From Micractinium sp. NFX-FRZ (taxonomy: Eukaryota; Chlorophyta; Trebouxiophyceae; Chlorellales; Chlorellaceae): a DNA stretch of 64,000 nucleotides. The DNA lies in assembly GCA_029339195.1 (NCBI GenBank), contig JAPTJF010000096.1:93870-157869 (forward strand). The letters run 5' to 3'. A program made the translations under genes and the position numbers. The notes below the pieces were generated by a model. That model was not told the origin of the DNA and ran no database searches. It saw only the letters and a program-made list of their open reading frames with translations. Within the stretch, counting starts at the first letter, position 1. Every line of letters begins with the position of its first letter. This document shows, in pieces, positions 4,907-63,576 of the stretch.

Positions 4907-7900
4907 TCATTGCCGCTGCGACTCGCTCCACTCGCGCGCATTCTGGAACAGCTGCAGCCAGGGGCCGGGGCTCTTGGCATCCAAGCCCAGCTCGGAGGGG
5001 AACCAAGGGTTCTGCCACATCATGAAGCAGCGCTCCGGGTGCGGCATCATTGCCAGGTGGCGCCCGTCGGGGGAGCACATGGCGGCGATGCCCTCGGGCG
5101 AGCCGTTGGGGTTGAAGGGGTACTGGTTGGTAGGGGAGCCCTCGCTGTCGCAGTACCTGCAAAGGTGGAGTTGCGAGATGGGCGACGCAGCGAGGCGAGG
5201 CGTGAAGCGGCAGCAGCGGTGCACGGACGACATCAGGCCCAGTGTAGTCATGACAGGCAGCCCGCGCAGGCCGCTGCCCGCCATTGCACCCGCAGGCACG
5301 ATCCCAAACCTGGTCTGCCCCAGGTGGCCTGAATTCTTTCTCAACCCACCTGATGGGCGCCAGGCAGTCCTTCATCACGCGCTGCTTCACCTCCTCGCTG
5401 GGGAAGTGCGCCTGGCCCTCGCCGTGCGCGCACCACACGCCGATCTGGGCGCCACCCATGCCCCGCAGCATGATGGAGGGGGAGTCCTCCTCGATCCGCA
5501 CCATGGTCCAGCGGGACTCGAAGCGGCCCGAGGAGTTGTGCACAAAGCGGGGCTGCACAGCGTCCTCCAGAAGGGCGGCGTCGGCGGGCCCCGTGGCGGG
5601 CACCCAGCCCAGCAGCGCCATGAGCTGGCAGCCGTTGCAGATGCCCAGGGAGAAGGTGTCGGCGCGGGCGTAGAAGGCCTGGAACTGGGCCCACAGGCGG
5701 TCGTTGAAGCGGATCGTGCCCGCCCACCCCTTGGCGCTGTCCATCACGTCGGCGTAGCTGCAGGGGAGGGGCAAGAGGGAGGAATTGGAGTGTTACTTGA
5801 GTGGATTTATACCAGTCGGGAGCAAACTGGCGGACGCAACTGAAGCCGCCTGCTCACAAAGCCGATGCCCTGGAACTGGCCCAGATGATGGAACTGGCCC
5901 AAATGACGCCATCCAGGTTGTCAAGAGCACCAACCCCTTCAGACCGAACGGCAGCACAGCAGCAGTGAACCCATCAGCCTACCTGAACCCTCCCACAAAA
6001 ACGATGCCCTGGAACTGGTCCAGGGTGACGGTGCCCGCCAGCAGATCGCTCATGTGCACGTCCCACGGCTCCATGCCCGCAGCGTACACAGCAGCCGCCA
6101 TCTCGCGGTCGCCGTTGCTGCCCTCCTCACGGAGGATGGCCACCTTCACCTTGCCTGCAATGGAGGGTGCCAAGGAGAGGGTGTGATGAGATCGACACAT
6201 GAGCTGAGGTGGGCAAGGTGTGGTGGCGTCACAAATGGTGATTGGAAGTTGTGGTGACAGCCCCGACAGCAGGACACCCCGAAGCAGCATGAGGAGTGAA
6301 ACACGCAGCGTGCATCAGCACTACTACGGCCCCATATGGGCAGCCACCCAGTCCCGCGCACCGCTGGCCGAGAGCTTGTCTGCAGGGGTCCAGGCGGGGG
6401 TGAAGGGCACGCGCCATTGTGGCGCGCGCCGGGCTGCCAGACCCGACTGCTCCGCCTCCACATTCTCCTCCGCGCACTGCAGCCGCTCCAGCTGGAAAGA
6501 CGTGGCCTCCCACACGTCGCGCAGCGCAGGCGTGGTGCCGCTGATCTGCTGCTGCCCGCCCACCGCGATGCTCACTGCATCCGTGGACTGGGTCTTGCCG
6601 ATGGCCGCGCAGGCCACGCCCGCTGCCTGATAGGCAGCCACCACCTCGGCCTCATGCTGGGGAGACACCTCAAGGACCAGGCCAAGCTCCTCAGCAAACA
6701 GGGCAGCCATGGGCTCGCTGGCAGGCAGGTCCACAGACACGCCGCAGTTGCCCGCAAACGCCATCTCCAGCACCTGTGGGCAGGGCGGGGCAGGGCGGGG
6801 CAGGTTAGGAGCGCATGTGGGAGAGCAGGGTCAGTGAGCAAGCGTCCAACACTTGTAGGTAGGCCGGGGAAGGACGGGCGGGTGGGAAGAGGGCACTGAG
6901 CATGGTGTGTCCAGAAAGCTGAGCTAGCAATGCGCGTGTGCAGCCCTCGGCAACCATCTGGTACGAGAGTAAACATAGACAACTCCACATGCACGTGCAG
7001 CCAGATCTGCAGACACGTGGCTTTACAGGCAACGCACCGCGGTGACCAGGCCGCCGTCGCTGATGTCGTGCCCCGCCAGCAGCTTGCCCTCCTCCAGCAG
7101 CTGCTGGGTCACATTGAAGGCAGACTTGAGGGTCTTGGGGTCGACATCAGGGGAGGCGTCGCCCACCTGCCGGGACGAGAGTAAAGCGCAGAGAGGGGGG
7201 TTGAGGTGGCAGGAAACGGCTGGGTGAGTGCCCACCAGGATGGGATGCACCAAGGCATGAGCGCCCGGTACGAGCTGTCCTGGTATAGAACAGCATATGA
7301 CCAGTGCCCTGCCTGCCTGCCTAAGCCAACCCTCCAGTACGTGGAGACCTGCACCAACAGCACACACACGTGTGCGAGCGCACGCACAACAAACCCGAAC
7401 CGAATACCGGCATGCAGACCTGTGCCAGCGCGGAGGCGCCCAGAACGCATTCAAGTATGCGTGTTGCGGTGTAAGGCCCTGCCTTGGCAGCACCAGCAAC
7501 CCTACCTACTAACAGTTCAGCCCTGCCCACCTGCATGTAGACCTGCGCCAGCGCGGAGCCGCCCAGGCGGCGCTGCCCTGCTCCCAGGTCGACGTGCAGC
7601 AGCGTGGAGGCTCCGGGGGCCTTGAGGTCGGGGGTGACCACCTTGGTGATGTCGGGGCAGGTGACGTAGGCAGAGACCACCAGGTTGCCCGGGGCCTTGA
7701 CGGTCTCGTTGCCTGCAGGGGAGGGGAGTGCAGGAGCCGCTGTGTTAGCATGGCAAAACAGGAGGAGTGGGGGTGATGTAGGCGGAGACCACCAGATTGG
7801 CGGGGGCCTTGCCGCCTCAACGCCTGCATCTCAAGGGGAGAAGGTGGGGAAGATGGGCCCGAGCGAGCAAGATTTGCTGCTAGGGATCAGCTAGTCTTGT

Positions 7901-10900
7901 AGTATATTCTGCTGCTACTCGAGACCAGCTAGCCTTCCACTGATTTGTATTGCTGCCGCCAGTTTTAACGCAGCATCCTGCTTGGACTAGGCTGATTTGA
8001 TGGCAACCCACCTGCCGCAGCCGCCATGGACAGGGAGTCCTTGCCGCCATCCACCGCCACCTCCAGCTCAATCATGGCGTCCCGCAGCGCCACCGCAGCG
8101 TCGTACATTGCTGCTCCCTCGCTGTCCATCTTGGCAGCGTACATCCAGTTCACTGCAACACAAAACGAGGGCACCAAGGCACTTTGCAGCCCAGGGGGCA
8201 TATGGTGCTTTCGGCAGGGCACACAGTTCACAAGCCGGGGAGAGATGCAGGGAGGCACGTGGGGGGATACTCCAAGGTTGGCCTACGAGGGCTGCCCTGT
8301 CCATATGCTCTACAGGAGTGACACACACAGGAGGCGCGCTGCCATACGAAGCTGAGGGGCCATGCAGTTGCCTGCTAACAGGAGGGCTGGGACTCACCGG
8401 AGGCCTTGACATCGCGCAGCGCGGTCACGCGTGCAAACACGAGGTTGGTGAGCGCCTCGCCCAGTGCCAGCCGCGCCATGGCCTTGGGGTCAATCAGGCC
8501 CTGCAGCAAGCCAGCCACAAAGGCGCCAAAACGCAGAATGAAAGCTCCTGTCGATACGGCAGGCGCCCAGCAAAACGGCTGGACAGCAGGGGCCAACATA
8601 TAGCAGCAACTTGGCAGTTCATGCCGCCACCTAGGATCGTGCAGCTGCCTTTCATCAGCGACGGCGCTCACCTTGAGCGGCTGCTCGCCGATGGCGGTTG
8701 CTGCGCCGGTGTAGCCAAAGTGTGTCTGCGCCATGACCGCCACGTCAGAGATGGGCAGCTGCAGGGGGCCGCAGCACTGCTGCTGCGCGATGAGGCCCGT
8801 CACGGAGCGGTCCACCTGCGGGTTGAAAGGGACGGGAAGAAAAACAGGTGGATAGTGTGTGGGCCCAACTTTAACAACATGATGCAGCCACTCTGCTCTC
8901 TGCGTCCTAGCTAGCCCGGTTCCCCGAGGCAGGCAGGAAGTCTCTGCCCAACAAAGGTTGTGAGGATCACAAGGTCGAAGCAGCACGGACCATACCCTTC
9001 GGCCGGTGCTTCACGGAGGCAGCATGCAAGTCGTGCAATCCCCCTGCCCACCTTGGTTGTGAGGAAGCGCTTCGAGCCGACGCCGGGCAGGCGCAGCACA
9101 CGGTCCAGCGCCTGGGCAGCGTCCGTGCCAGCCGGCAGCGACACAGCCGAGGTGGGCTCCGGCTTGCGGTCAAACCTGCCGGGAAGCGGGGACATGGGGG
9201 ACAGGGTGAAAAGGATGCCAGGAGAAGGGCTGGACTTGGGCGCATCTTCAAGGCACTCACAAAAGAAAGCTAGACGTGTGTGCAGGACAACGTGCACAGT
9301 AGCGGTCCCAGCAGAGCAACTGGCTCACACAACGCGCCCGCCCCCCTTCAAGCTTGAATCCGAGCTAGAGGTAAGGTTGGGCATGTCTCTCAGCAGCTTG
9401 ACCGGGTCCAGCCCCACCGCAACTCAAAGCACACGGGCCCAAGCCCAAAACGCCCGGATGCAGCACTCCCACGAAGGTCCGAATCCAAACTCACAGGGTC
9501 ATGACACACTCAGCCCCAGAGGCACACTATGAATGCATGTTATATGAAACCTACTTGAATGTCTTGTTGGGCATGTCTCCCAGCACCTTCTCCAAGTCCA
9601 AATCCACGGGGGTGGGGGTGCCCTCTGGCGCGTTGCGGTCCCTGAGCACCACCCGCCCGCTGCCGTCAATGGCGCCAATGACCTGCGCGGCGGGTTTGAG
9701 GAAGGGGGGGCGAGTGAGCAGCAGCGGCAGCAGCGGCGACAGCGACAGCAGCAGCCACAGTAGAAGCTGGGGCAGCCATGCCACTACATGTTTGGCACCA
9801 TACCAACAGCTGCTGCTGCTGGCAGCATCAAGCGTGTGCCCGTAACCCAACTTCTCCTAATCCCCCCCCCCCCCCCCCCCCCTCCCCCTTTGCGCATGAC
9901 GCAAGGCTGTCCTATAAAATGGGCTCAAGCAGAGGACGGGCCTCCCCTTCTCCCATCCGTATCCCAACACCAACTCAGTTGCCTCTTTGAAGCACCTGCA
10001 TGAGGCAGCGCTCGCGCTCGCAGATGGACTCCAGCAGGGCGCGTGCCTCGGGCTTGATCAGCAGGCAGTCGTTCTCCTGGTACTCGGCACCCCAGATCTC
10101 CAGCACGCTCAGCGTCTGCGGTGGTGGGGAGGAAGGTGTAGGCATGCGAGCGGTTAGCGCCCCAATCACCTCCCCTTCTTGATGTCAGCAGGGTCAGGTC
10201 AGTCGATAAAATCAACTTTCCCACACCGCCAGCATCCCGAGCTGTAGAAGTACCTGATCGCCCAGCTTGATGGCGCGCACGTCAATCTCCGCACCCAGCG
10301 GGTAGATGATCTCCTTGACCACGTTGCAGTTGCCGCCCGCGCCCTGCAGGGGAGGGGCAGCGGAGGGCGATATTTCGTGGCAAGGGGTTAACAAAACGCA
10401 GATGGCGCATCAGGGAGGCAGGGCCCCGCGCCGCGTGCTCCTTGAGACTGCGGCATCCTCTTACCCGCCGCCGCCGATCAATTTTTGGCTCATGACCTCA
10501 ACATAAAGCTCAGAACCACGGCGCACCTGGTCGTGGATCTGCTCAATAGGGTTCTTCTCCCCCAGCTCCACGCAGGCGCGCACCACGCGCCACAGCTTCT
10601 GGGACACCTCCGCATCGCCGCGCTGCACGCAGAGGGACAAAAGCAACGAGAACCTGGGTTTGTTTGCACGAGCCACAGCCTCTGAGACTTCTCCACGCTA
10701 TCGCACGGCACGCAGCACGAGCAGGCTGAGGGCCAGCAGCACAAGGTGAGGACACAGGCTTGCTAGTCTCAACAGCAGTGGTGCCGCCAGCAGCAGTCTG
10801 CCAAACAAGCTGTGCAACCACCCCCTTGTCTGGGCTGCGCCCTGCATGGCAAGCGGGCCACCACAGCAGCGCGCACGCCAGCCAGGCAGCCAGGCAGCCA

Positions 10901-13900
10901 ACCGTCCTTACGACACTAGTAAACATGCAACCACTGCACCCAACCACTGCACATGACCACCTGCACGGCATTGAAGTCGAGGTCTGCCGAGTTGGAGCCG
11001 GAGGGGACGGAGGAAGCGGCGCCGCCGCCCATGCCAATGCGGTACGCGGGGCCGCCAATCTTGACCACCAGCATGCCCAGGTCCGGGTCGTTCTTGTACA
11101 GGTGGCTGTGGTCGATCTGGCCCAGGCCACCGCTGCAGGAGCGGAATCGGGGGGAGAGTCGGAAGGGAAAGGGAGGTGAGACAGAGTGGGCAGAAGGTAG
11201 CGTAGGCTGAAAACGTTTGTACAGGGTGGTTGTGGTGGTTCTGGGCCAGGCTGCCGCTCCGAGTCCAAATAAATTGTTTCTAGGTCAAAATGCCAGGGCT
11301 AGAGGGCTGCGAGCATGCGCTGCACGGGTCAACCCGCTGCTGGCTGTTTGCGTACTTGGTGTCACACATTGATTTGCTGTGAGACAGACTGTTGGGCGAC
11401 ACCCAGCCAGAAAGAGTGAGCAGAACATGCACATGCAAGCACAGCCAAGGCCAGGCAGGATTCCGAACCAACCAAGGAAGCACGCAGGCAAGCGCACCTG
11501 AACATGATGGGCTTGATCCACTCGCGGCGCTCGCCGCCGGGCATGCGCTGCCCAAAGGTGCGCGTGTAGCCGCACACCAGCGGCTCCCCAAACTTGTTGC
11601 CATAGTCGGAGGCGCCGTTGGAGGCGTCAATCAAAATCTGGAGCGGCGGCGCCAGGCTGGCGGGGTACTCAAACGACTTGTCCTCCCAGGGAAGCTCGTA
11701 GCTGCAGGGGAGAGCACGGGGTGGTGGCAGGGGATGGCATCAGGGGGGATGGTTATTAACAAGGCTGCGAAGGGCAGCAGGGCAGACATCCTTTGGACAG
11801 GTGTAGCCAAACAGCTAGCCCTGCCTCTGAAAGGGAATTTCCCAGCTCTCCGCCTCTTCACGCACCCTCCATCTCAGCCCCGCATCACCCCACACACCCG
11901 TCCATGTGCAGGTTGCCCACGCAGTAGCCTGCGGTGGCCGCTCCCATGATGGAACCGATTCCGGTGGCATGGGTGTCGCGGATGCGCCCGCCTGCGCCGG
12001 TTTCGGCGCCTGGGTAGGGCGCCACAGCGCAGGGGAAGTTGTGGGTCTCGGCGGTCAGCAGCACGTCCCAGTCGCGCGCCTGCAGGAAGGTGGCGCTCGA
12101 ATTTGTTGGAGGTTGGAACAAAATTCAGGCCATGGTGCAGGCAACTGTATGGCTCTCTGCTGCGAGCATCCTGCACAAAAACACACGATTGCTGAGCAGG
12201 GAGTATGCAGCAGCACCAGTACGCGCAATGGGCAGAAAGAACAAGGGTGCAGCACAGAGAAGTGCTGCACGAAAAGTGCAGAGTCCTGCCCAGCAGCAAA
12301 GCAGGCTGCCGCACTCCCAAGCCAGCGCCACAGTGCACCCCTGCGAGCGTTGTTTGCCGGCTTGCCTGCGGCTCCAGCGCGGCGGGGCCGCCGGGGGTCG
12401 TGGGCAGCACGGGGGTGACGGGCCCTCCGCGAATCGCGGACGAGTTGTCCTTGAACCCGATCACAGAGTTGCCCTTGTTCACATCCAGCGTGGACTTGAC
12501 AATGTCAAACAGATTGTCTGGCATCTTCTCGCCGTCCACAAACAGGTCAGCCTTGAAGAACCAGTGCCTGCACACAGGCAAGCCAGCAGACGGGATGCCA
12601 ATTTAAAAGACAACCGGTGCAGACGGGCGTGGCAGGTACGAGTGTTGTCAGGCATGGCGCCGCTGCCGCTGCCGCCACACTGCCTGCCTTTTGCGCTGCG
12701 CCAGGTTGGGCAAGCATACAAGCCTCTGCGTGTTTGTTCTTCCGCCCCCACCCACCGGCTGTGCTCCGAGTTGGACTGGGCAATGTCAAAGAGCTCCACG
12801 TTTGTGGGGTTGCGCTTCATCTCCTCCCGGAACATGTTGGTGTAGTAGTCCAGGTCCCACTCGTCAAACGCCAGCCCCATCTCCTGCACAGTGTACAGAT
12901 AAGAGGACAACCAAATTCGAGCAATTGGGAAAAAAGCTACTGTTCGATGTCCTGCAGTAGCATGGACCCACCATTTCGGGCAATGTCTTCCACAGCTGAG
13001 CCCCGTATGTACCGCGTGGGTTGACTTGCAAAGCACCCTAATCTGCCTCCTCTCTACTTAGCTGGGCCTGTTGGGTGCACTTGCTGTACCCCTGCCCTTC
13101 CGTAGACGGAACCACCAGCCTCCATTCACCCTCCAAATCACTATTCAACTGGCCTGCGCACAGAGCACAGCATCCCTGCCATGGCACCCCTGGGCCTCCT
13201 CCCTTGCCACCCCCCTGCCTGCCAACGCATCCTGCACCGCGGTAAAGGAAACTGACCTTGTTGATGGCCTCCAGCGCGGCGCGCCCCTGCTCCATCACGG
13301 GGATGGTGGTCACGGGTGCGGGCACCATGTCGCTGGCAAAGGAGGTCAGGGCAGTGGGGTACACCTGCTCCGTCATGCGGTCGTGCACCAGGGCAGCAAA
13401 CTTGGCGCGCTCCTCGGGGGACAGCGGGGCGGAGCCCTTGAGCAGGTAGCGGCGGGACACCTCGATGCGGTCCACCTGGGAAGGAAGAGGGGAGAGAGGC
13501 AAGCGGGGAAGGGGGGAAAGGAGTAGGGCTGCTTAGCAGCGTGATGGCTCACCCACGCCCAGGCTAAGAGCTCAGCAACGCCAGGCATCACGCTGCACCC
13601 AGCAAGCGCCGCCAGATCTTGAGGACGGGCCTGGAAGCGACGGGATTGTCAGTCAGCTGGGCTTGATTAGGCCCCACAATAACTGGGCCATGTAGCCAGC
13701 CAGCTGGGCTTGATTAGGTCCCACCTTGGAGAGGCCGCATGAGGAGCAGATGGAGAGGGCGTTGGCGCACCAGGCAGTGCTGAAGCTCATGCGGGGGCCG
13801 ACCTGCCAGGGCGGGGGCGGGGTAGGGGCGGGTGGACGAGAGGCCGGAACCGTCAGTGTGGGAGAGGTGCGGAGTGCGAAGGCCGTGAAAGAGCATGCAG

Positions 13901-27200: not shown

Positions 27201-28404
27201 CACAGATTGACATACTGTATGCCATCACACCCCCAGCTGCTCCCAGCACCTATGCGCACCTGTGCCAACCCAGCGATGGGCCTCTTCCCCCTCTTCCCCG
27301 CGCAGCTGGCATACATTGCAGTACGCCGTCACACCCGCGGCTGCTTCCAGCACCTATGCGCACCTGTGACAACCCAGCGATGGGCCCCTCTTCCCCGCGC
27401 AGCTCGTGGAGCTGGCGCAGGCGCTCCTTCTTGCCCTCAGGCTCCACACTCAGCTCGTACAGAGCACCTGTGTCTGTCCCCAGCAGCGCCTCCCTGCATG
27501 GATAAAGGAGGCAAGCAAAGGATGCCAGGTTTGGGGGACGGGCTTGTGCTCCTTCTTCCCTTACCAAGCTGCCCGCCTCGCCCGTCAAACCCACCCGTCC
27601 CACTCCCTGATTGCACCCTTGTTCCTCACCCAAAGCTCTGCGCTCTCAGCACCGGGCTCCACGCCACGCTGGTCACTGCCAGTCCTTTGAGCTTGTGCAG
27701 CTGCCGTGATTTCTTCAGCCCCCCATCCACATAGTGCGTCTCCAGTGTGCCGCTGCTGCCGCCCGTCTGCATCGTCAGCAGCGCGTGCCGCCCGAGTGGG
27801 TCAACAAACAGGCGACGCACGTGCGCGTCGCTGCTGCGGCTGGCCTCAAGCTCTGCCACTGCATTGTGGTGGGCCGGGGAAGGCCAGGTGGGGTGAGCAC
27901 CTCAACAGGGTGGCGTGTGTGCTGGGCAGATGACAACTGAAGCAGGCAGGCAGGACTTGGCAGGCAGGCAGGCTAGCAGGCAGGCAGGGCCGGCAAAGCG
28001 GCAAGGCGCTGGAAATACACAGGCAGGGCAACAGGTAGCCATGCGCGTGGTTGCAAAGCAGACAGCGGCAGGCGGGGTGGCGGCAAGCGTGTGCGCAAGC
28101 TTCAACTCCAGCAGCCACCGTGTAGTGTGTGCTACCCACCTGTGCTGCTGTCACCCGCCAGGTCGTGGCGCAACAGGAAGTTGCGTGAGGTGGCCACAAA
28201 CAGGATGTCGTTGCATACAGTAAAGGCCACAGCATGGCCCCTTCCCCGGGCCAGGTACTCGGCCCGATGGTCTAGACCAAACAGATCGGTAGCCGGGGCG
28301 GCGGAAGGGGCGGCTACTCGGCTGCCGCTCAGGTCGCCTAGCCCGCCTAGTGCCTGCTCTGCCGCATCGGACAACGCTAGCTGAGCATTCCAGTCGTCCA
28401 GCAT
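21227..28404 (-). CDS. VPS18: Vacuolar protein sorting protein 18 (HOPS/CORVET core subunit)
   Basis: VPS18/Pep3 is a shared subunit of the HOPS and CORVET tethering complexes on late endosomes and the vacuole. The N-terminal propeller region begins around EYLARGRGHAVAFTVCNDIL and FLLRHDL (28150-28260). It continues through SVAWSPVLRAQSF (27630-27680), GTDTGALYELSVEPEGK (27430-27490) and GIYYGRLDLDPNI (26630-26680). The clathrin-heavy-chain-like repeat region includes DEDRDMWRVYLDKGDYRAAL (25610-25670), typical of plant VPS18. Near the C-terminus a coil (EEIEELKQEMKQATHTVQAIR type, 22025-22080) precedes a RING-like segment CARCSRP...FPTGNAFHGSC (21475-21625). Two of the usual RING ligand positions read Thr and Asn. 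The start is placed at MLDDWNAQL (28404); an in-frame ATG at 28557 would add about 50 low-complexity residues. Several introns carry decayed duplicates of exon edges. Confidence 0.94.
21588..21817 (-). repeat. Exon-edge duplicate, VPS18 (acceptor side)
   Basis: The start of the RING exon with its acceptor (21588-21695, EDLARLEHRSAALDSSEPC) is copied in the preceding intron at 21709-21817. That copy reads GDLAQLEHCN before a stop. It includes a decayed but still CAG-ended acceptor. Confidence 0.85.
22560..22720 (-). repeat. 82-bp direct duplication spanning a VPS18 donor
   Basis: Segments 22560-22637 and 22642-22720 align over their whole length. Each contains CCCGTAAAGACAG, CTGCTGCAGACAT and an AGGT(A/G)GGCTGCA donor-like junction. 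Confidence 0.9.
24097..24263 (-). repeat. Exon-edge duplicate, VPS18 (donor side)
   Basis: The exon end encoding LLEYLLQRHE (24213-24263) matches the intron segment 24097-24148 around GATATTCCAGCAGG. Confidence 0.75.
27154..27408 (-). repeat. Three tandem copies of an exon-donor junction, VPS18
   Basis: Units begin at about 27154, 27255 and 27359, with a period of 101-104 bp. The exonic copy ends LRGEEGPIAGLSQ followed by GTGCGC. The next intron copy repeats the exon end, the CAG|GTGCGC junction and the following intron sequence. The third copy has CAG|GTGCAA. Confidence 0.92.
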
Positions 28405-32660: not shown

Positions 32661-32707
32661 GCAGTTTGATGGGACTGGAAACTGATTGCTGATGCGTGCG
32701 GGTTAGC

Positions 32708-45768: not shown

Positions 45769-45908
45769 CTCTCTGCTCTGCTCCGCTCCTCGCTCCTTTG
45801 CACGCCCAAAATACACCGATAATACACAAATCCTTGCGAAAATGGTTGAGGACAAATGGCGCGCTGCAAAGCAAGGTGAACGCCGCTGACAGCGCCGAGG
45901 GCGGCGCT

Positions 45909-51900: not shown

Positions 51901-54900
51901 TGGAGGCACCTGGCGTGGTAGCAGATCCGGGGCGGCGTGCACGTGTTGCTGCAGCGCTGCAGTGTAGAGCATCATGTCCCGCAGGTCCCCGCAGGCAGAC
52001 ACCGCCCTGCAAAGTTTGCCAGGGCAGGCAAAGTCGAGAGTTTGCTCAGGCTGCAAACAGTGACGAGGGCAATGCAGAGCAGCACATAGGCTGGTGCCAA
52101 CCCTAGAAACTTGAAGATATTTTAATCAAGTGCGGCTGCTCCTCTGCACACGCCCACACCCATCAGAGCCCCGAGCACGCACCTGGACCACGGCAGGTGC
52201 CACAGGTCTGCCCACTCCTCGCTCAGCCGCCCCTCATCTGCCAGCTGCTTCTCTGCTGACAGCAGGGCACGCCCCATGTCTGCTGCATTGGCGCCCTGGA
52301 TGGCCTCACAGATTGCCAGGTGCTGCTGCAGCACGTCCGCGCCCTGCATAGAGGCGCGAGCAACGGTAAACGGGCCATGAGTGGCATTCATGACGTAGTG
52401 CAGGCAAGGGCTCACACCATATGCCATGTGGTGGTGGTTCAAACCTTGTCAGTTACGCCCGTGCCGCTCGTTATGGTGCTGCTGTGAAGCCATGCAGGGC
52501 TGGTGGACATGCGCCGGTGCGTCACCAGTAGCAAAGCATGCGGCAGCTGGCCTTGTTGGCCAGACAGGCAGGCACCTTGCGGCAATGCATCCACTGCCAG
52601 CTGGATGCGCTGGCCAGAGGGTGCGACAGCGCAGCAAGCGCGGCACGTGTATGGCAGCACAACTTGCCTTGAACCACACGGGCACAGCGCCCAGCAGCGC
52701 ATCCACTGCCATCAAGATGCGCTGCTCAGCAGGTGCCAGCAGCCCAACCTTGCTGGTGTTCCACTCGCCACGCAGGAAAGGCGCGACCTGGAGGCAGGGG
52801 CAGCAGAGAGCCAGAGAGTGAGGGGGGCGCTCAGGCAAGGAGCATGCAGCAGGGCACATGGCAGTGCTCCTTGCCCGCAGCCCGTTCAACACTGAAGCAG
52901 GTTGAGACTCAGACAACTCTATGGGCTCAGCTTAAACTGTGGGATGCACCAGTGTCGGTAGCCATCTACATCTATGCGCAGTCACTCTAGCTGGCAGCCG
53001 GCGAGCGCAGCTAGTGCAATCTGACTGTGTTCCTCCTCCCCCAGCCCGCTCAACACAACCAGCAGCGGCATCTGGCAGCTTTGGTCCTCACCAGTGTGCG
53101 GTAGCCATCAGGTCGCAGCGAATCCAGCTCAGAGCCAGCCAGCAGGCGCTGCTGCCGCCCACTGGCGCGCGGCAGCGGTATGGAGCGCAGAGCGCGCAGC
53201 AGCGGTGCCTCCACCACCACAGTGGCCTGCTCCAGCCACTGCCGCAGCCTGGGGATTTGCTCGCCTGTGAAGGGAGGGGAAACACACACAAGCGGCCCGT
53301 CAGGGGGTCATGTTTGGAGGCTGATCAGCACACATGCTCAGCATTACAAGCACTTGAATCTCAGCAGTGTTTGAATGCATGGCATGCTTGCGTTGCGGCC
53401 CCGAACGATCCACCTACCCCACGCCATCCCACATGCCCCACGGCTTTGCGGCTGCTCACCTTCGTACCACCCCCACGCCTGCCCCTCCAGGTCTTCCACA
53501 TAGACTCGAAAAGCGCCCGCCTGGCGCCCAAAGCACCAGTACCGCCTGCCACGCAGGTCTGTGCCCAGCGGCCGCCGCAGCCCCATGCGCCGCTGCTGCA
53601 GCCAGGCCGCCCATTCAGCGGCTGTGGCTGGTGCTTGCGTGGCCGCCTTGTCCGGCTGCTGTGCCTGCTGCTGCTGCTGCGCGCCGCTGCGTGCTGTGCA
53701 TGCTGAGGCGGAGGGCGCTTCGGAGCCGGCCCGGCCGTGGCCCTCGCCGCCGCCTGCCTCGCTGCCCTCGCCGGCCGGCGCTACCTGAACAGACACCGAA
53801 GGCGTGGCCTGCCGAGAGGCGGCCACGTGGACCCCTTGAGGTGGCAGCAGCTGCTGCAGGGTTGTTGCCGCTTCTCCATCTGAGTCCTCATCGCCCGGCC
53901 CACCAACATCCTTGCCGCCTGGCAAGATGCCTTCCTTGCTGCGCCGGGCTGCGGCATACGCATCCAGCCTGCTGTTCAGCTCCGCCTGCATCTGCTCAGA
54001 CCCCAGCGCCAGCCGCACCAGTGCCGACAGCAGCTGCGAAGCAGTAACAGGCAGCACAATTGTGTTGGTTGGCAGAAGTTCAGCAGCCGCAGCAACATAG
54101 CAGGGGCCAAGCTGAGCAGGGCGGGAGGAGGCAGAGCCGGTGCAAGGACACAGTAGTGCGTTAAGAACACCTCAGACACTTCTATACTAGCTTGACAGCT
54201 CTGCACCCAATTCACAAACGGCTAGTGACAGCCAAGGCATGTGCAAGAGCAGCCTGAGAGCTCACCCTGATGCGCTCCTCAACCGACAGATCCTGGAAGT
54301 CGCCATACCCCAGCTTGATCGCCACAGCCCGGTCCTCAATGTCCGCATCGGCAAACTGCCAGATTGCGTTGCATGCGCGCTCCGGCCAGGGAAGCGGGTT
54401 CTGCAGGTGGAGGCAGAACGATATAAGTTTGTGCAAGAAAGCGCCCGGGCAGCAGGTTGTGCAGGTGTGGGAGGAGGGTTGCACAAGCATTCCAGCCAAG
54501 GCAGTGGGTCTGCAGATGGGAGAGAGAAGAAAGGGAGTTGTGCGAAGTAGGCAGGGAAGCGGGTTTCGCAGGTGGGGGAGGGAAGGGAAGGGGTTACGTA
54601 AGTGAGGTACAGGCCAGGGCGGCAGGTTATGCGGGTGCAGGGCTTGGGCAGTGCAGTGTGCAGGAGGCAGGGCGGCAGGGGTTAGCAGCGCAAGATGGTG
54701 GAACGTTAACTCCATGCTGTTGGCCCTGCCTCTAGTGCAGATTGAGATGGCAATATCACAAAGGGGCAGAAGAATCGCAGGCAGAGCAGCTCAAGGCTGA
54801 CACACGAGCACACAACAAGCAGGGTCCGCCCACGCCACCCACCTCGTTCTCCTCGCTCTGCAGCTTGGCAGCACGCGGCTGGTCACCTGCAGTGGCTTTC

Positions 54901-57900
54901 CCAAGGGCCACTCGCAGCAGGGCACAGCACACATCCCGCAGCAGCGCGCCGCTGGGGGCGTAGTCGCGGTCGAGCGGCACCAGCCGGCGTGCCGCCTCAG
55001 GGGTCAGCCCATACTTCTCCTGCAGCTGCTGTGCCTGCTGCTGTGCCGCCTGGTCCGCTGCCTGCTGGCCGCCCACCCCTCCTGCTGCTGCGGCGGCGGC
55101 CGAAGTGCGGTGCGGCGGCTGGCTGGACTTGGCAGAGACGCTGACTTTGAAGCGCAGCGGCGCCTGGGCAGGCGTGCCGTCGTCCTGCGACTGCGGGCAT
55201 GGTGTGCGGCCCACGCGGATCAAAATGAGTGCACGACGGCACGGCATCACCAACGCCTGGGCAGCTAAGGCAAGACCAGCTTGCGCCTGCATCATGGTCA
55301 CGCCCACAAAGACACCACGCAACAAATCGAGACAGGGCACGCACCTGCACACTCGCATCTGCAACTGGCGGCGTGGGTTGATGGCAGGCTCGCTGACAGT
55401 GATGTTTTCTTGACCTTACCAAACAGCAACATCACCACAAAAACACAACAATTTCGCATACTCACGTGTTGCTGTGACTGGCGACGCGGCTTGATGGCAG
55501 GCTCATCAACAATAAAGTCTTCTGAGGCGTGGCGCGTCCAGGACCCAGCAGTCGCCCGGCGGGGTCGCCCAGACTCAATCACAGCGGGTGGCGCGTGCTC
55601 CTGCTGCTCCGACTGCTGCGCTGCCACCTGCTGCTCCTGCTGCTCCTGCTGCTCAGACTGCTGTGCTGCCACCTGCTGCTCCTGCTGCTCAGACTGCTGT
55701 GCTGCCACCTGCTGATCCTGCCGCTCCGGCTGCTGCGCTGCCAGGTGCTCCTGCTGCTCTGATTGCTGCGCTGCCATCTGCTCCTGCTGCACTGCCTCCA
55801 TATGCGACTGCGACTCTGGTGCCCCGACACCCTCCTGTGCAGGCCGCTGTTCCTGCTGCGTTGCGTGCCCAGGCAATGACGCAGGTTGCGTGCCGCCTTG
55901 CTCAGCAGGTGACGCTGCCTGCGGCTCTCCGCCTGCCACAGCAGGCTGCTGCTGCTGTTCTCCTGGCTCCTGCTGCTGCTGCTGCTGCTGCTGCTCGGCC
56001 GCTGACTGCACCTCACCCTCACCAGCAGCCGCTGCCAAAACGCCCCCCGCCTCAACTGCATGAGCAGAGCGGAGCACAAAATCAAGCGCCTGCCTACTGC
56101 ATCCAGAGTGGCCCGTACTGCATCCCACACAGTTGTGTTCTGATCACCACACTGCACGCCAGCGTATTGCAACAACGTGGTACGCACCTTTCCAAGCTGC
56201 CAGGGCAGCGGCTGCTGCGGGCACCACTGGCGCAGGGCGCGCCACACGCGGGCCAGGATGGACTGCTGCCTCCAGGGCGGACAGGGAGCACGGCGGCAAC
56301 TGCAGCAGCTCACTGAATGCCTGCAACATGAGATGTGGCAGGGTACGGAGCAGGGCAGTTTTAGAGTAAACAATGGCTAACGTCGCTGGCACAGCAGTGG
56401 TCACATACAACCCCCCAGCTATTCGAACATTTCACTAGCGCTTAGTACCACAGCACCACAGCCTCAGTGGAGGGCTCCCTGCACGTACCTGTGTGAACTC
56501 CCAGACCATGAGCAGGTCGGGCACGCTCGCTGGCGGCACTCTGAACCCAGTGCGGTTGGGCTCCGGCGACGGGCCGCGTGCTGCGTCCGCGGCCGCCTCT
56601 GCCGCTGCTCGCGCCTCGGCCTCTGCAGACAACACGGCAGCGTGCGCTTAGGATTAAGCAGCTTAACTGCCGTGTGAAAATGCTTTGGGCCTTAGAACGT
56701 GGGCCTCAACACATGCACGTGCCATTTGCGCCGGGACCTACCTGCCCGCTGCTTCTCCTCCTCAGCTGCTCGGCGCTGCAAATATTTGACACGCTGCCAG
56801 GCCCGCCGCCGCGCCCTGCCCAAGTTGCCGCCCTCCTCGTCAGCGTCCGGGTCTGCAAAGGCAGTAACAGAGGGGACCACAGCAGCATATCAATACTCCA
56901 GTGCAGCCACAGCGGCAACAGGCTGCCCAGCACAGGCAGCGCTCTTCATCCGCCTCCGGTCCGCACTTAGCAATGGGCAGCGGTGCGATGCAACACAACT
57001 GCACGGCAGTGCATCGCAGCTTTGTGTCACAGGCCGCACTTCACAGGTTGCTCGGCAAGGCGGGAGGCTCAGCTCAGCACAGGCCGACCACAGCCAAGCA
57101 TGGGATGGCTGGCGCCAAAGCGACCCAACGCAACACCCAGACCTGGACCTCGAGAGACCCCCCCAGTTCTCGGCTGCAAAAGCGGAGCCCAGCTTTCAAC
57201 TCAGGGCCTCACTCCATCCCAGGCCAGACCTGAGAGTTGGAAATCCTCGGGCACTTCCTCTCCATCACTCAGGTGATCCATCTCTCCTCCTTCAAAGACT
57301 GACAGGTCAGCCATCGAGGCAGCAGCCGACCCCAAAGCTGCAGCGCCCGCAAACCGCACCCCTTTGCTGCCGGCAGCGCCATGGAAGGTCTGCAGCGGTG
57401 GCAGGCCCAGCAAGCAACACCAACATACATCGTGCATTGTGAGTGAAGAAGACACACCAGGGAGGTGGACGCAAACGTGTGCACAGAACTGCGGAAGGGG
57501 CCCACTGCATGGGTGCTCCCGCTGTGACACTGGCAGGCAACGTGGCCACCCACCTTTGCTTTCTTGGGCTTGGCAGGCCCTGCAGCGCCTGCGGCCCGCT
57601 TTGCACCGCCACCTCGACGCTGTGCCATCCCCAGGCTGGCCTGCACATGAGCACAATGTGGTATGTGATGCCCACTGACGTGTTCGCACGGGAGGGAGCG
57701 GCAAAAGCAAGGCTCTTGGGGGCAGGCAGCAGCAAGTATGGCAGCAGTCAGGTTGCAGTGCCGTGCCAAGGCTGACAGCAGCAACCCACCTCCACGTGTG
57801 CTGCCGCAGCTTGCTTGGTTGCTTCAAACAGCGCGGCATAGCGGGGCGACGGCTCAAGTAGCTTGTACCATGCATGGGGGGAGACCGCCCAGAGGGTGAT

Positions 57901-58770: not shown

Positions 58771-61127
58771 CTATCGTTGCCCTCGCCGCCGCGCCACAAC
58801 AGCCGCGCCACTGTCAACGACTCCTGCCGCTGTGCCATAGCGCAGCTTGAGCGCGTCTGCGCCGTAGTGATGCTGCACCTGAGGGTAGCATGCTGCGTGC
58901 TGCCCCTCAAAATACTCGGTCGGCGAACAGTACTGCTCTTGAGCTACCGAATGCCCTGCGGCTGCAACAGCAGCAGGGGGAGGAGAAGAAACACCTTCGA
59001 ATGAGGCTCACCCTCTCTGTGCGCTTGGTGTGCAGCCTCCCTGTCCTAATAACCTGATTGCGAAGCTGACACTGGAACATGCAACCTACCTGACTCATTG
59101 CATCCACGCCCGTTCACGTTGACCAGGCTGCCCTCCAGCGGCTTCACCTGCACCAGAAAGGAAAGGCAAGGCAAAGCAGGTGATGAACAGTAGGCTGGAA
59201 GGCCAGGCCCCTGACCATGGCAGGGTCCCGCCCCGTCGCAGCTGCTACTAACAGCAACTGCCTCGCTGCCTGCTCTCACATTCAATCCCCGCTTTGGGCT
59301 GAGTTTCGACCTGTGGCACCTCTTCTCCAACTTCTGGAGCACCACCTCATGTCCTCTTCAAGGTGACCACCCCAGCCAACCGTTTTGTCCTTTGTAACAC
59401 ATCACTACCAAATCACTCACCGGAGGGGCCTCCGGAGGCCGCCGCTTCTCCAGCTCCTGCAGCACGAGCCCCAGGTCCTCATCAATGTGCTCCACTCGCC
59501 CGATGAAGTCCACCGCCCAGCCGCCGCCCTCGGTCACGATGCATTGCTGCTGCGGCTGGATGTGCACGTACACAAAGTTGCGTCCCTTCCTGCAGGTGGC
59601 AGAGGAGGGGACCGGGTGGCATATGAGCAGGAGCCAGCAAAAGCTGCATCTGGTTATAGACGCCCCGGAAACTGCGGCCCTGGCATGTTTGAGGGGTAGT
59701 GGGGTGGAAAAGGAGGAGAGCAGTAGCGGGCGAAAAAGGGCGAGGAGAGCAGGGGAGTCGGAGGGTGGAGTAAGCCTACGCTGGCAACAACTGCGCTGGG
59801 GTCCCCCTGTGCGGCAGGTTGGCACTTATGTGCCGAGCTTCATCCTACAAAGCCTGCGAGACACGCAAAAGGAGCGTCAGGAATCCACCCACACCGTGCA
59901 TGCGAAGCCCCCATCCGAGCCCGGTGCCTCCCGCTCACTTCTTGCACTGCTCATCGCCCATGCACTCCTCTGCAAAGCCAGTGGGGTCTGCGCAGAACTT
60001 GTTCCAGTTGTAAGCTGAGCTGGCAGGGCCGCCCAGCGCCAGCTGGCGCATCATCATCTTGTAGCTGCTCACGGCGCGCTGGTACGGGTTGCGCACAAAC
60101 GTGACCACAAAATATTCGCTCCACAGCTTCTCCAGCTCGCCCACTGTTTTGGCCTGCATCGGGGCATGCCGTGGGGGGGGGTTGGACAGTATCATTTGGG
60201 AGTGGATGCGGGCGCCGGAGCAGCGCCTGCAGAGCTTGTGCGCCGCACTGCCAAGCTGCATTCTGGCTGACATCACCTGCAATGGCATCCCTGCATGGCA
60301 TATTGCCCTGCCCCACCCACCTGGAACAGCTCGAAGCTGAGGGCCTTGCGTGCAGCATCATCCTCGCTAGAGTTGGTGGCCTTGCTGCAACCGCCAAAGT
60401 GGCAGAACAGGCTGCTGGAGGCGGTTTTGGCATGGCGCAAGAATAGCACCTTGTACAGGTGGTTGACGTACACCTGGCACCCCGTATAGATGGGCAGCGG
60501 CGGCGGCAGCTGGCCTGCAGCACAATTGGTGTGCAGGGGGCAGGTGGCAGATGAAGGTGGTAGGCTGTTGGACAGCGTCTGCCAGCGAACTGTGCTGGCA
60601 CCAGAAAGGCATCGCATGAAAACGAATGAAGATTACCCATGAAAATGAATGAAGATTACTCTGTGGCTCAACATGCATAAACCTCACGGCAGCTGTGGAT
60701 CGGCACTCTTCTCCCTGCCTGTGTGCTCACCCTCTGCGACCATGCGCTCCCGCTCTGCCAGCCACGTCTGCAGCCGCTGCTCCCGGAACGACTTGAAGTC
60801 GGGATGCCAGTTGCGAAGGTCAGCTGGCCCCTCCTTCTTCACAAAGCCGTGCACTGCAGCCCCTGCAGTGACGGCGCCCACCATCCCCACTGCACTGTCT
60901 GCCCTCTCCAGTTCTGCCGCCAGCTCTGTCGTCGCCCGCCGCGTGCCGCTGCTGCCTGCCAACTGCTGCTCCTCCTCCTGCGGCTGCTGCTGCCCCGCCG
61001 CATTACCGGTCGTTCCGCTGTGAAGTGGGCGCCGTGCCCAGGTGAGGAGGACAAGAATTAGGCCTGCAGGCAGGAACAACCTGCGGTAGCTCGCACTGGA
61101 GCGTGCCCGAGCTTGGGGAGGCCGCAT
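58771..61127 (-). CDS. Type II membrane sulfotransferase (Sulfotransfer_2-like)
   Basis: Six exons close in phase to 407 residues: 60731-61127, 60321-60514, 59939-60153, 59421-59589, 59090-59147 and 58771-58961. The protein has a short basic cytoplasmic tail, one hydrophobic anchor (LFLPAGLILVLLTWA, residues about 17-32) and a Gln/Glu-rich stem. A lumenal catalytic domain follows. The PAPS 5'-phosphosulfate-binding segment is VLFLRHAKTASSSLF, and the 3'-phosphate segment is FFVRNP-like, FVRNPYQRAVSSYKMM. The last exon ends with YPQVQHHYGADALKLRYG, matching the usual C-terminal Tyr/Asp block of Golgi carbohydrate sulfotransferases. It should transfer sulfate from PAPS to a glycan in the Golgi; the acceptor is unknown. 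An in-frame ATG at 61253 would add 42 residues before the anchor, so 61127 is preferred. It is divergent from the fucosyltransferase-like gene. Confidence 0.9.
59313..59486 (-). repeat. Exon-edge duplicate, sulfotransferase (donor side)
   Basis: The exon end encoding DEDLGLVLQELEKRRPPEA (59433-59486) has a copy in the following intron (59313-59363) reading VLQKLEKRCHR in one frame. Confidence 0.8.
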
Positions 61128-61314
61128 GGCAGCTTTGTGCAGGGGATGCGCGATGGGAAGCAGAGCAGCGAGTAAGTTTACAAAGTCAGAACCACCACTT
61201 GCTGACTGGGCATGCATGCGCCTCCCTCCAGTGTGTTCTCCTGCAACCCGCATTTGAAAGTCGAGTATCCCAGCAGTTCATGAGCCGGGTGGTATCGGTC
61301 TAAACGGGCCAGCC
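61128..61314. promoter_or_regulatory. Compact bidirectional promoter, sulfotransferase and O-fucosyltransferase-like genes
   Basis: Only 187 bp separate the two divergent start codons, so the two glycan-modifying genes probably share regulatory DNA. No defined element is recognisable. Confidence 0.6.
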
Positions 61315-63576
61315 ATGCGCCAGCTGCTGTTCAGCGCAGCCTGCTGGTTGCTGTTCGGCGCGGCCTGCTGCTGCCAAGGAGCACATCTGCCGCATGACGC
61401 CGCAGCTTTGCTAGGCCGGCGATTTGGCGGTGGCAACAGTGGCGCCGACAGCGGCGCAGCGGCCCTGTTTGCCAGCGGCAGTGCGCGTGGCCTGGTGATT
61501 GACGGCCGCCGCTACCGCCTGCAGATGCGCTACACCGCTTGCACAGGGCTGGTGAACCAGCAGTACAGCCACATCGCGGCCTTCACGCTGGCCGCGGCGC
61601 TGGGCGTGAGCGAGGTGCACCTGCCGCCGGCAGCAGTCCGCGACAGCTTTGGTCACAAGTTCAGTGTGCACCAGGAGCAGAACCAGATGCAGTGGTTCCC
61701 CGCACGCAGCGGCTGCCTGCTGGACGTGGAGAGGCTGCAGCGCACATGGGCTGCGCTGGGCATCAGAGTGCACGAGGTGGGTGCTGGGTGGCTGAAGTGG
61801 GGCCTGCATGCAGTGGTGGTTGGGCGAGGCTAGCTTGGGACTTGCGGAATGCTGCCGCCGGTAACCATGCACCTGCTGGCTAGGCTGGCACTTTTTATGC
61901 AAAGGGCGCGTTGCAGCGTTCCTTCTTTTTGCATTGGTGCATGCAACCCTGGGCCCGCCCGCTCATCAGTCGCGGCCTTCCGCCTCCCTGCCCCCTCCCC
62001 GCCCACCCGTTGTCCTCGTTTCCCCCTGTGCGCCCCTGCAGCCGCAAACACTGCTGCCCTTCCCAGACCTCATGTTCCCCGCCGGAGCTTTCCAGCTGGT
62101 ACCCCTGCCTGGGATCGACCCTCGGGCCGTGGTGCGAGTGGATGGCGTGTACCTAGCAGGCCTGGACCTGCATCAGTTGGTGGCTCACGTGCACGAGTCG
62201 GCAGAGCGCCACCTGGCGCGCATGAGCCGCGCCTTCCCAGGCCTGCAACTGGACGAGCTGCTGCTGGAGCTTCCCTGCACCTTCTTTGCGCTGCACACCG
62301 CCAGGTGGGTGGCCGATGGCCAGACGGTAGCAGCATGGGGCATGGAGCGGTTGCAGATGCTTCAATGCCTAAGGCACCGCTCAGGCCTGCCCTTTGTTTG
62401 CTCCTAGGCCGCTGCCGTGCTTCGAGGCTCACACTCACTGCCTTGGCTCAGATGACGCACAAATCCCCGCTCTTTATGCTGCAGCATGCTTCCCGTGGTC
62501 AGCCAGGTGGCGGCCACGCTGCACTTCAATGCAAACCTGGAGTACCTGGCAGACCGTGTGGTGTCCTACATCACACGGGATGGGCGCCGCAAGTTCAACG
62601 GTGGGTGCTGCTGGAGGGAGCTCCCTGTGCTGCCTGCCCCCTGCGCTGCTTGCCTCCCCCCGCCTGTGCCCTGTGCTGGACTTCTCCCCGCTTTGCACCC
62701 TTACAGGCACGCATGCGTACCTGCATGTGGGGCAGACGCAAGCAAAGTGGGTCATCATCCCACCTGCCTGCACTGTTGCGCCCTTACTCTCGCCCCGCAC
62801 TGCAGGCGCGCACCTGCGTGTGGAGAAGGACGCTGCCGAGTGGTTCATCATCCTGGGCGGCTCGGGGGTGGTCTGGAAGATGTACCGTGACAAAATGCAG
62901 GAGGCAGGGTTTGAGCCCACCCTGCCGCTCTTTGTGGCCACAGGGCTGCTGTCGTACGGAGCGGAGCTGGAGTTCCAGGGGGGTGCAAACATGCTGGTGC
63001 AGAACCACCTGTGCAGCGAGGTGCTATACAAGGAGCAGTATGTGCCCGTTTTCGAACTCCAGCGTGAGTTGTGTGTGTGTGTGGTGGGGGCAAGGGGAGC
63101 GGGGGCACAGTGGGGAGGCAGGTGGTGGAGTTGACATTGGCAGGAAACGTGGCTGGAACCTCGACAGGGAATTTGGTGCGTGACGTAACTGGCAAGCGGC
63201 AGGTGCTTAGAAAGCAGCAGGCAGGGTCGTGGTCGCCACTCATGGGCCTCGCACTGGCAGGTGGGCTTGGGCCAGATTCATTGCAAAAGGCCTGGCGCAT
63301 GCTTAGATGCTGTTTCCGCCATCCGGTTTGTCCCGTTATACCCCTGCAGGTCTGAACTCAGAGCAGCTTGCGCTGCTGGACTTCTTGATCTTGGCCCGGG
63401 CGGAGAAGTTTGTGGGGTTTGGGCCCAGCACATTCAGCACATACCTGAAGGAGCACCGCACGCTGCATGGGAGCCCTGCCAGCCAGAGCTGGCTGGTGAA
63501 TGCCAGCAAGATCGGCACAGACGAAATCTTTGCGCACTCGGCACAAGTAGCGCTGCGATCCTGGAGCGGACAATGA
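61315..63576 (+). CDS. GDP-fucose protein O-fucosyltransferase-like enzyme (PF10250 type), secretory pathway
   Basis: Five exons close in phase to 441 residues: 61315-61776, 62042-62304, 62485-62600, 62806-63063 and 63350-63576. The N-terminus MRQLLFSAACWLLFGAACCC is a signal peptide or anchor. The first core block, MRYTACTGLVNQQYSHIAAF with ALGVSEVHLPPA, corresponds to the GG-x-N-Q-x-x-x-x-x-A block of O-fucosyltransferases. The second, AHLRVEKDAAEWF (62806-62845), is the HLRfE-D motif that lines the GDP-fucose site in the family, with Val for Phe. The C-terminal block ARAEKFVGFGPSTFSTYL matches the conserved region near the C-terminus. Acceptor specificity cannot be told. TGTAA at 63608-63612 is a good polyadenylation signal. 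The intron before exon 4 carries a decayed copy of that exon's start. Confidence 0.9.
62707..62862 (+). repeat. Exon-edge duplicate, O-fucosyltransferase-like gene (acceptor side)
   Basis: The start of exon 4 with acceptor (62806-62862, GAHLRVEKDAAEWFII) is preceded by a decayed copy at 62707-62766. That copy follows TTACAG and reads GTHAYLHVGQTQAKWVII. The true exon is the one that keeps the HLRVEKD motif. Confidence 0.88.

Follow-up and report, generated by a model that had tools for sequence, protein, structure and literature searches.

To our knowledge, the source of the DNA that introns gain after their birth is poorly known. Tandem duplication of an AGGT-containing segment has reportedly created introns, in work by Hellsten in 2011 and by Gao and Lynch in 2009, and patch-mediated insertions are said to have been found in rice by Vaughn and Bennetzen in 2014. 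Introners are families of similar elements. The small duplications left by break repair sometimes carry filler, and we know of no description in which they prefer exon edges.

In the sections cited here, a study of potato RdRp describes a duplication that spans the end of an intron and the start of an exon, and another of 83 bp inside an intron, in one gene where the copying of the whole unit gave a new intron and an inserted exon (PMC4974935). The cited part of Rogers and Bendich (2025) concerns direct repeats at intron borders, 4-30 bp long (mean 11.4), that pair the two intron-end regions (PMC11782384), and that of a third study deals with small tandem duplications arising from break repair through Pol alpha-primase/CST (PMC8355091). 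Here we describe copies of exon edges within introns that, on predicted gene models, are local, direct, edge-anchored, mostly spaced and mostly neutral-looking in their decay.

Gene models and repeat events

The sample comprises 264 kb from a Chlorella-like green alga: the window, by which we mean the whole 64-kb stretch of DNA under study, and 20 loci of 10 kb each from other contigs of the same genome. Gene models are ab initio predictions over these 264 kb, made without RNA support; a first, one-strand gene finder fused genes and was replaced. Because the gene finder bars stops within exons, stop-free proteins are no test of the models, and several very short introns are probably copies that it called exons (for example at L018 and L015). 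All three proteins scanned against Pfam (FGAM synthase, aldose epimerase and sulfotransferase) match the expected families, and the VPS18-like, CABIN1-like, DDT/WHIM-like and fucosyltransferase-like names come from the initial annotation or from reading the predicted proteins. The counts below take the 607 introns of at least 60 nt among 643 predicted.

Local repeats were collected with a diagonal scan, a BLASTN self-comparison having yielded few. There were 222 merged repeat events (score at least 16), of which 219 were placed in genes and aligned and 120 had a gapped score of at least 17: 71 junction, 31 intron-only and 17 exon-only events and one other. We kept the 65 of 71 junction events that fall in the intron next to the exon edge concerned and dropped the remaining six.

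Exon-edge copies in adjacent introns

For each exon, the 45 nt at its end or start were compared with its own intron and with three length-matched introns from other loci. Over the 264 kb and both sides, a score of at least 14 was reached in 79/1,214 own-intron comparisons and 10/3,642 controls (donor side, 33/607 vs 3/1,821; acceptor side, 46/607 vs 7/1,821), and at a score of at least 16 the counts were 25/607 vs 0/1,821 for donors and 30/607 vs 2/1,821 for acceptors. Own introns thus clearly exceed length-matched foreign introns, the comparison on which the initial annotation had staked its claim. Chance and composition are further ruled out by distant-pair and inverted controls, and 95% of exon windows and 93% of intron windows get through the low-complexity filter. 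A scan that uses no gene models finds a large excess of local direct repeats at distances under 300 bp, with a local rise at 80-130 bp; this holds for the window and for the 200 kb on the 20 other contigs.

Copies stay close to their source. Adjacent exons match in 56/2,194 comparisons and exons one to four ranks off in 7/6,968 (2/2,000, 3/1,816, 0/1,666 and 2/1,486 at rank distances 1 to 4), and over all event classes (d 30-350, score at least 18) direct repeats number 133 and local inverted ones 2; the adjacency and direct orientation of small tandem duplication are therefore both present. The median spacing between copy and exon is about 100-112 bp. Patches mostly stop at splice signals, taking in no more than 18 nt of intron in 52/65 events, and in 20/65 the alignment excludes the junction itself.

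A readable exon-edge copy is present in 54/607 introns, or ~9% (about one in eleven). The recurrence, two-sidedness and varied decay first seen in the window extend to the whole sample, with events in 15 of the 21 loci and none in six (unevenness p 0.12), 30 donor and 35 acceptor junction events, and copy identities from 0.73 to 1.00. The estimate of about twenty introns in the window is also borne out, 25/155 scoring at least 14 and 19/155 at least 15. The supposedly unusual density is not, since 18/155 window introns and 36/452 elsewhere carry events, which makes the window ordinary for this genome.

Copies in the window

Repeats sit where the initial annotation had placed them, from the first at 5855-5884 to the last at 62715-62760, with an epimerase triple at 30572-30731. 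There are 20 strict window events, spaced 83-206 bp, in FGAM synthase and sulfotransferase and in the VPS18-like, CABIN1-like, DDT/WHIM-like and fucosyltransferase-like genes. In FGAM synthase (minus strand), donor-side patches lie at 5855-5884 (copy of exon end 5994-6023, in intron 5758-5982; 139 bp, 90% identity), 7406-7443 (exon end 7529-7566; 123 bp, 89%), 9376-9410 (exon end 9566-9600; 190 bp, 83%) and 13994-14020 (exon end 14082-14108; 88 bp, 85%). Acceptor-side patches in the introns of the same gene lie at 7772-7828 (exon start 7660-7717; 112 bp, 82%) and 11217-11258 (exon start 11094-11134; 124 bp, 85%), and an acceptor-side pair, 10584-10632 and 10667-10715 (83 bp, 73%), scores 18 in the exon-edge test and stands outside the strict list.

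The VPS18-like gene, also on the minus strand, has an acceptor-side intron patch at 21712-21772 (exon start 21592-21654; 118 bp, 82%), a donor-side one at 24091-24124 (exon end 24207-24240; 116 bp, 82%) and a three-patch exon-end array at 27154-27404 (intron 26952-27363; spacings 97 and 109), whose two inner spacers resemble each other (z 13.6) and whose outer flank is unlike them (z -1.0). A tandem-type 83-bp duplication spans a donor junction at 22556-22635 (minus strand), with its partner at 22639-22718 (80%). On the plus strand, the epimerase exon end and donor at 30643-30676 has an identical 34-nt copy 71 bp upstream (30572-30605) and an identical 22-nt match 72 bp downstream (30710-30731), and the CABIN1-like intron copy 38610-38635 repeats exon end 38508-38532 on the donor side (103 bp, 92%), with a second copy in between.

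Further minus-strand copies include a donor-side patch in a DDT/WHIM-like intron at 50205-50236 (exon end 50290-50321; 85 bp, 90%), a tandem-like acceptor-side copy at 50745-50819 (exon start 50645-50717; 101 bp, 81%) and donor-side intron patches at 52582-52633 (exon end 52694-52746; 112 bp, 79%) and 55359-55391 (exon end 55472-55504; 113 bp, 85%). Five patches of acceptor plus exon start form an array at 54368-54641 (minus strand), four of them in intron 54401-54842, in steps of 52-65 bp and with spacers unlike one another. The sulfotransferase intron copy 59319-59365 (minus strand) repeats exon segment 59442-59489 on the donor side (123 bp, 81%) and ends 21 nt before the junction, and the fucosyltransferase-like intron carries an acceptor-side patch at 62715-62760 (plus strand; exon start 62808-62853; 93 bp, 82%).

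Spaced patches and whole tandem units

Tandem duplication, as first proposed for the window, accounts for part of the set: 14/65 junction events are whole units, two equal copies with similarity across the period, and 51/65 are short spaced exon-edge patches, the dividing line being an aligned length/spacing of at least 0.65, a cut picked post hoc that favours small spacings. The 51 patches have a median spacing of 112, aligned length of 41 nt and identity of 0.86; copies of the tandem type lie closer together (median about 85, counted from the event list), partly as an effect of the cut. The spacer is mostly unlike the copy's outer flank, and this includes most young patches. In 47/51 patches the junction-side end lies at most 20 nt inside the exon, and 34% of simulated uniform templates lie further in (KS p 1e-4).

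For patches at least 88% identical, intron-side identity is down to 0.30-0.33 at 20-30 nt, against a background of about 0.28. A neutral tandem simulation of the acceptor side gives an aligned length/spacing of 0.97 at this identity, and the observed medians are 0.38 for acceptors (n 15) and 0.32 for donors (n 9). A neutral tandem model would need divergence in the intron parts to be about tenfold faster, or more, than in the exon-copy pairs. Patch-type events number 51 between exon and intron and at most 14 between intron and intron, the latter restricted to d of at least 45; uniform copying with the measured detection power predicts about 72 intron-intron patches, so that these are at least five times rarer than predicted. 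Whole tandem units show no such exon bias (14 junction, 10 intron-intron).

Flank tests covered 56/65 events, and intron-side similarity reached p of at most 0.05 in 9 of the 56, where about 3 are expected by chance. These nine include the youngest patch, at L018 (32/32 identical), and two at 0.90-0.91 identity (L010:8236 and L021:1672), and the spaced class is thus partly made of tandems. The outer flank is unlike the inner spacer in 11/11 arrays tested (z at most 1.7), and the inner spacers are mutually alike in 4/9 comparable arrays, so some copies arrived as patch-plus-spacer units. Composition just outside the copies, at an old junction or not, gave p 0.14 and 0.10 (n 21 and 18).

Intron creation and intron length

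The initial annotation invoked AGGT-segment duplication as a means of creating introns. Repeat spacing comes within 3 nt of the intron length in just 3/65 junction events, and the median ratio of spacing to intron length is 0.40, which argues against such an origin here. The in-register donor-acceptor signature scores at least 16 in 2/607 introns vs 0/1,821 controls and at least 14 in 5/607 vs 3/1,821, the two clear cases being introns of 156 nt (L002, minus strand) and 91 nt (L005).

Intron growth through copies is plausible. Introns that hold an event tend to be longer (median 253.5 vs 214.5, p 0.023), though longer introns also offer more room for a copy. The L011 patch, which by eye carries L011-type bases, is absent from the paralog L023, where the gene finder also places an intron; the patch is thus younger than the split of the two genes or was lost in L023. 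The two introns align poorly at the patch site.

Decay of the copies and their splice signals

Copies mostly decay like non-coding DNA. Differences are spread nearly flat over the codon positions (104/749, 111/751 and 132/749), and gaps in patches are of 1 nt (33/38) or 2 nt (5/38), although 3-nt gaps were unlikely to be seen because the alignment charges every gap base. Silent codon changes number 85 vs 63.9 expected and stops 3 vs 8.7 expected (p 0.022); silent changes on the exon side account for at least part of this mild silent excess, and weak constraint on the copies may also contribute. Copies therefore lack the intact frame and marked silent bias of alternative exons. Constraint or gene conversion acting on the patch was rejected, since in four arrays with alignable spacers the patches of intron copies (0.82-0.93) diverge no slower than the spacers (0.81-0.89); in five other arrays copy-copy patch identity is 0.65-0.86 and spacers are unlike, so this rejection draws on few cases.

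The splice dinucleotide is kept in many copies (AG in 23/35 acceptor and GT in 17/30 donor copies), and the acceptor copies that retain it have scores similar to those of real sites (median 7.1 vs 6.7). In all, 28/65 intron copies hold a splice site scoring above the lower quartile of real ones, a warning for gene finders. Cryptic acceptors near real ones showed no excess over the antisense strand.

Discussion

These observations could be explained, at about even odds in our estimate, by short-range copying of exon edges into the adjoining intron followed by neutral decay, beside ordinary tandem duplications. An exon-edge segment of about 25-60 nt, running from the junction inward and often including the splice signal, would serve as template and would be copied repeatedly as a direct repeat into the adjacent intron, landing about 80-135 bp further out. 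Its source may be error-prone short-range synthesis or repair, either fill-in of a staggered break that adds filler or a short-lived switch of template. Such a copy would be tolerated because it sits in the intron and leaves the true splice signals untouched; it would then decay as non-coding DNA while protein selection keeps the exon partner recognisable, and random tandem duplications would occur alongside. We infer the repair or replication origin, the newness of the intron copy and the reason for the exon-edge preference. A repeat, an unrelated spacer and a repeat, as left by staggered-break filler, fit most of the 51 patches, but this structure predicts neither the exon preference nor the tight junction-side ends, and we know of no repair process that prefers exon edges.

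A rival account, which we consider rather unlikely, is that plain tandem duplications of ~100 bp occur everywhere and that those crossing a junction survive by splicing, with only the exon half staying readable, so that exon-edge copies are a by-product of geometry and selection. The direct orientation, the strict adjacency, the nine events with retained intron-side similarity and the whole units without strong bias are all compatible with it; whole units also reach into the exon about as far as patches do (on a reading of the event list), and the cited sections on potato document a junction-crossing tandem duplication (PMC4974935). Against it, simulated young copies are alike over the whole unit and the observed ones are not, outer flanks are unlike inner spacers in every array tested, even if some inner spacers are alike, and tandem-type spacing is shorter, partly from the cut. 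Repair in the adjacent intron guided by nascent or partly spliced transcript fragments that end at splice signals would account for the exon preference and the patch ends, but an RNA template gives no reason for copies to stay in the adjacent intron, about 100 bp away, and copies of joints between spliced exons show no clear excess (8/2,798 vs 2/1,122); we regard this route as highly improbable, and spliced mRNA as template was rejected on the same joint count. Exchange between haplotypes, with exons alike and introns unlike, fits in shape and is disfavoured by 93-97% patches beside unrelated flanks (L021:4286, L015:7811, L011:3171) and by the weak silent bias. Five DNA queries of the own genome revealed no second haplotype: three match only themselves, and the hits of the other two are 106 bases at an exon with 91% identity, a self-overlap of 118 bases and three short stretches of 43-70 bases.

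Selection that keeps the copies as decoy or alternative splice sites is improbable: the retained dinucleotides, the acceptor scores, the surplus of silent changes and the shortage of stops speak for it, and the frame-breaking gaps, the flat codon positions, the four arrays and the alignments that exclude the junction speak against it. It is barely credible that AGGT duplications or break-repair direct repeats made these introns, given two clear cases and spacings that so seldom match intron length. Equally hard to credit is an artefact, whether from chance or low-complexity matches, a faulty assembly or mistaken gene models; the predicted models and their suspect short introns leave some room for one, but the controls, the filter, the Pfam matches and 75-90% identity with frameshifts, unlike haplotype duplicates, argue otherwise.

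With about one intron in eleven bearing a readable copy, one could date and count the sources of intron sequence and compare them among strains, and the greater number of spaced copies from exon edges than from intron interiors calls for a mechanism coupled to, or filtered by, splicing. A bolder and quite unlikely extension is that copying coupled to splicing or transcription stamps segments ending at splice signals ~100 bp outward, so that introns would grow and renew largely from their own exon edges, with their long base-composition gradients as the fossil of the process.

Compared with known systems, AGGT intron gain shares the local direct duplication in a gene and the splice signals within the duplicated piece, but there the new intron is reportedly as long as the repeat spacing, whereas here the intron is mostly longer and the copy decays inside it. 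Introners likewise affect introns genome-wide, yet in the present set every copy resembles its own exon, and a search for introner-like families with four stretches containing introns found those stretches themselves and short matches of 43-118 bases only. Break-repair duplications, in the cited part of PMC8355091 and in rice, are similarly small, local and direct. Set against the cited account of potato RdRp (PMC4974935), the present sample has 65 junction events in 264 kb, and mostly the exon-edge patch alone is repeated. The intron-border repeats in the cited part of PMC11782384 are also direct and near splice sites, whereas the repeats here are mostly 25-60 nt and pair one exon edge with a stretch inside the same intron. 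The titles and abstract openings found, with subscription journals mostly outside their scope, describe no spaced exon-edge copies in introns. Beside the local direct duplications known so far, most of these copies stand apart as spaced exon-edge patches that look like neither plain tandems nor newly made introns.

Sample and gene models

The genome containing the window comprises 66.07 Mb in 838 contigs, and our sample consists of the window and 20 loci of 10 kb, one per contig (264 kb in total). The window's predicted epimerase is 76% identical to a protein of Micractinium conductrix, 75% to one of Chlorella vulgaris, 72% to one of C. ohadii and 80% to one further protein; judged by these identities, the source organism is a Chlorella-like alga. 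A two-strand gene finder, started from a generic consensus and trained on the 264 kb itself, returned 57 genes with 700 exons and 665 introns. All exon edges discussed here are its predictions, and its trained splice profiles settled on GTGNG-like donors and TGCAG-like acceptors. A Pfam scan covering three of the nine proteins predicted in the window found FGAM synthase, aldose epimerase and sulfotransferase, all three as expected. In-frame stops are present in only one of the 57 genes, a rarity that is no test of the models since the finder bars stops within exons. Across the window and the 20 loci, this model, which has no UTRs, assigns 57.5% of the DNA to introns, 36.6% to coding sequence and 6% to regions outside genes.

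In the window, long CAG/CTG-type tandem repeats at 55596-55790 and 34013-34470 appear in the proteins predicted for the DDT/WHIM-like and CABIN1-like genes as stretches rich in glutamine or alanine. The predicted FGAM synthase gene contains 21 consecutive C at 9862-9882, where slippage or sequencing trouble is likely.

Exon-edge copies are local and direct

A scan made independently of any gene model revealed a large excess of direct ungapped repeats less than 300 bp apart in the window, with a hump at 80-130 bp, and the same excess and hump are found in the other 200 kb. The initial annotation had described decayed copies of exon edges in the adjoining introns, and this description withstood the comparison with controls that the annotation itself had named as its refutation: at a score of at least 14, 33 of 607 donor-side exon edges match their own intron (controls, 3 of 1,821), as do 46 of 607 acceptor-side edges (controls, 7 of 1,821). 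At a score of at least 16, the edge of the adjacent exon matches the intron in 56 of 2,194 comparisons, versus 7 of 6,968 for exons one to four ranks further off. Inverted local copies are almost absent, with 2 hits versus 133 direct events at a score of at least 18, the latter figure including all classes, exon-only events among them.

An exon edge is paired with an intron in 71 of 120 well-aligned events, and 65 of these junction events fall in the intron that touches that very edge (30 donor, 35 acceptor). In 51 of the 65 the aligned length is less than 0.65 of the spacing; these patch-type events have a median spacing of 112, aligned length of 41 and identity of 0.86. From the splice junction, or close to it, the patches extend into the exon; more than 20 nt out on the intron side mean identity is about that of background, even for patches at least 88% identical. 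Intron-side similarity is absent from the patches at L021:4286 (33 aligned bases, 97%), L015:7811 (51, 94%) and L011:3171 (58, 93%), locus and position being given for each; it is present in three counter-examples, the youngest patch, in L018 (32 of 32 identical), and two patches at 0.90-0.91. Many intron copies retain the splice signal (AG in 23 of 35, GT in 17 of 30), and acceptor copies that retain AG have splice scores like those of real sites.

A paralogous locus, L023, matches L011:3265-3369 at 91% identity with its exon at G000:C335, 46363-46468. The two exons differ in length by single bases, and the L023 intron is shorter, aligns poorly and lacks the patch; L023 is possibly a pseudogene or affected by assembly errors.

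The mismatches that separate a copy from its exon are distributed across all three codon positions (104 of 749, 111 of 751 and 132 of 749; p 0.11), and the gaps within patches are of 1 nt (33) or 2 nt (5), longer gaps being disfavoured by the scoring. Silent changes (85 versus 63.9 expected) and stops (3 versus 8.7 expected) both count against a purely neutral reading, but in our judgement silent changes on the exon side, themselves expected, explain most of the silent excess and stop deficit.

Discussion

The initial annotation linked the copies to tandem duplication, which can create or lengthen introns, and saw in them an apparent genome-wide mode of intron growth. Duplication that creates introns is hardly represented among them, with spacing equal to intron length in only 3 of 65 junction events and a donor-acceptor in-register signature prominent in 2 of 607 introns. 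Growth of existing introns is plausible: introns with an event are longer (253.5 versus 214.5 nt), but longer introns also give copies more room. Across the window and the 20 loci, the 346 introns that reach 200 nt or more display smooth base-composition gradients of about 150 nt that extend far beyond splice signals. Between 10 and 180 nt past the donor G drops from 0.39 to 0.26, and pyrimidines climb from 0.49 to 0.72 across the 180 nt up to the acceptor; recurrent outward copying would have this outcome, as would splicing signals.

Plain tandem duplication fails for most events. When simulated tandem duplications spanning real acceptor junctions were decayed neutrally and detected identically, copies at least 88% identical aligned over 0.97 of the spacing; the observed medians at that identity are 0.38 for acceptors (n=15) and 0.32 for donors (n=9), and a fit would need a rate of divergence in intron parts about tenfold or more that of exon-copy pairs, versus a neutral expectation of twofold. 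Some intron-side similarity remains in 9 of 56 events, where chance alone would give about 3. None of 11 multi-copy arrays has an outer flank similar to its inner spacer, and in 4 of 9 the inner spacers are mutually alike; these four consist of three patches alternating with two spacers, followed by unrelated intron. Uniform short-range copying fares no better: templates lie deeper than 20 nt in the exon in 4 of 51 events versus 34% under that process, and at most 14 intron-only patches, several of which are low in complexity or close to junctions, were observed versus the roughly 72 it predicts by our own product. Whole tandem units do occur, 14 at junctions and 10 inside introns; a young 74-bp duplication at about 467-614 of L021, entirely intronic and 96% identical over the full unit, is of this ordinary class. 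The copies thus seem to be of two kinds, small tandem duplications that arise at random and a more numerous class of exon-edge patches, divided here by a cut picked after data inspection.

For the exon-edge patches, we propose that error-prone DNA copying, local and direct, would leave a patch of the exon edge in the adjoining intron, where it would be tolerated and subsequently decay. The intron copy would then be the younger member of the pair, and repair or replication its probable maker; mature mRNA as template found no support in a test for copies of spliced joints. The preference for exon edges may reflect selection against copies carrying the full splice module, template switching seeded by splice-signal words or participation of nascent RNA.

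Within the portions of the open-access literature covered, spaced, exon-edge-only copies inside existing introns are not described at such frequency, and the searched passages of the Auxenochlorella genome paper, which gives intron lengths, make no mention of exon-edge copies (PMC12636532). Other papers treat intron gain by tandem duplication as established (PMC3443670), describe a duplication crossing a junction in potato RdRp (PMC4974935), report short direct repeats close to the two ends of introns (PMC11782384) and trace small tandem duplications to break repair (PMC8355091).
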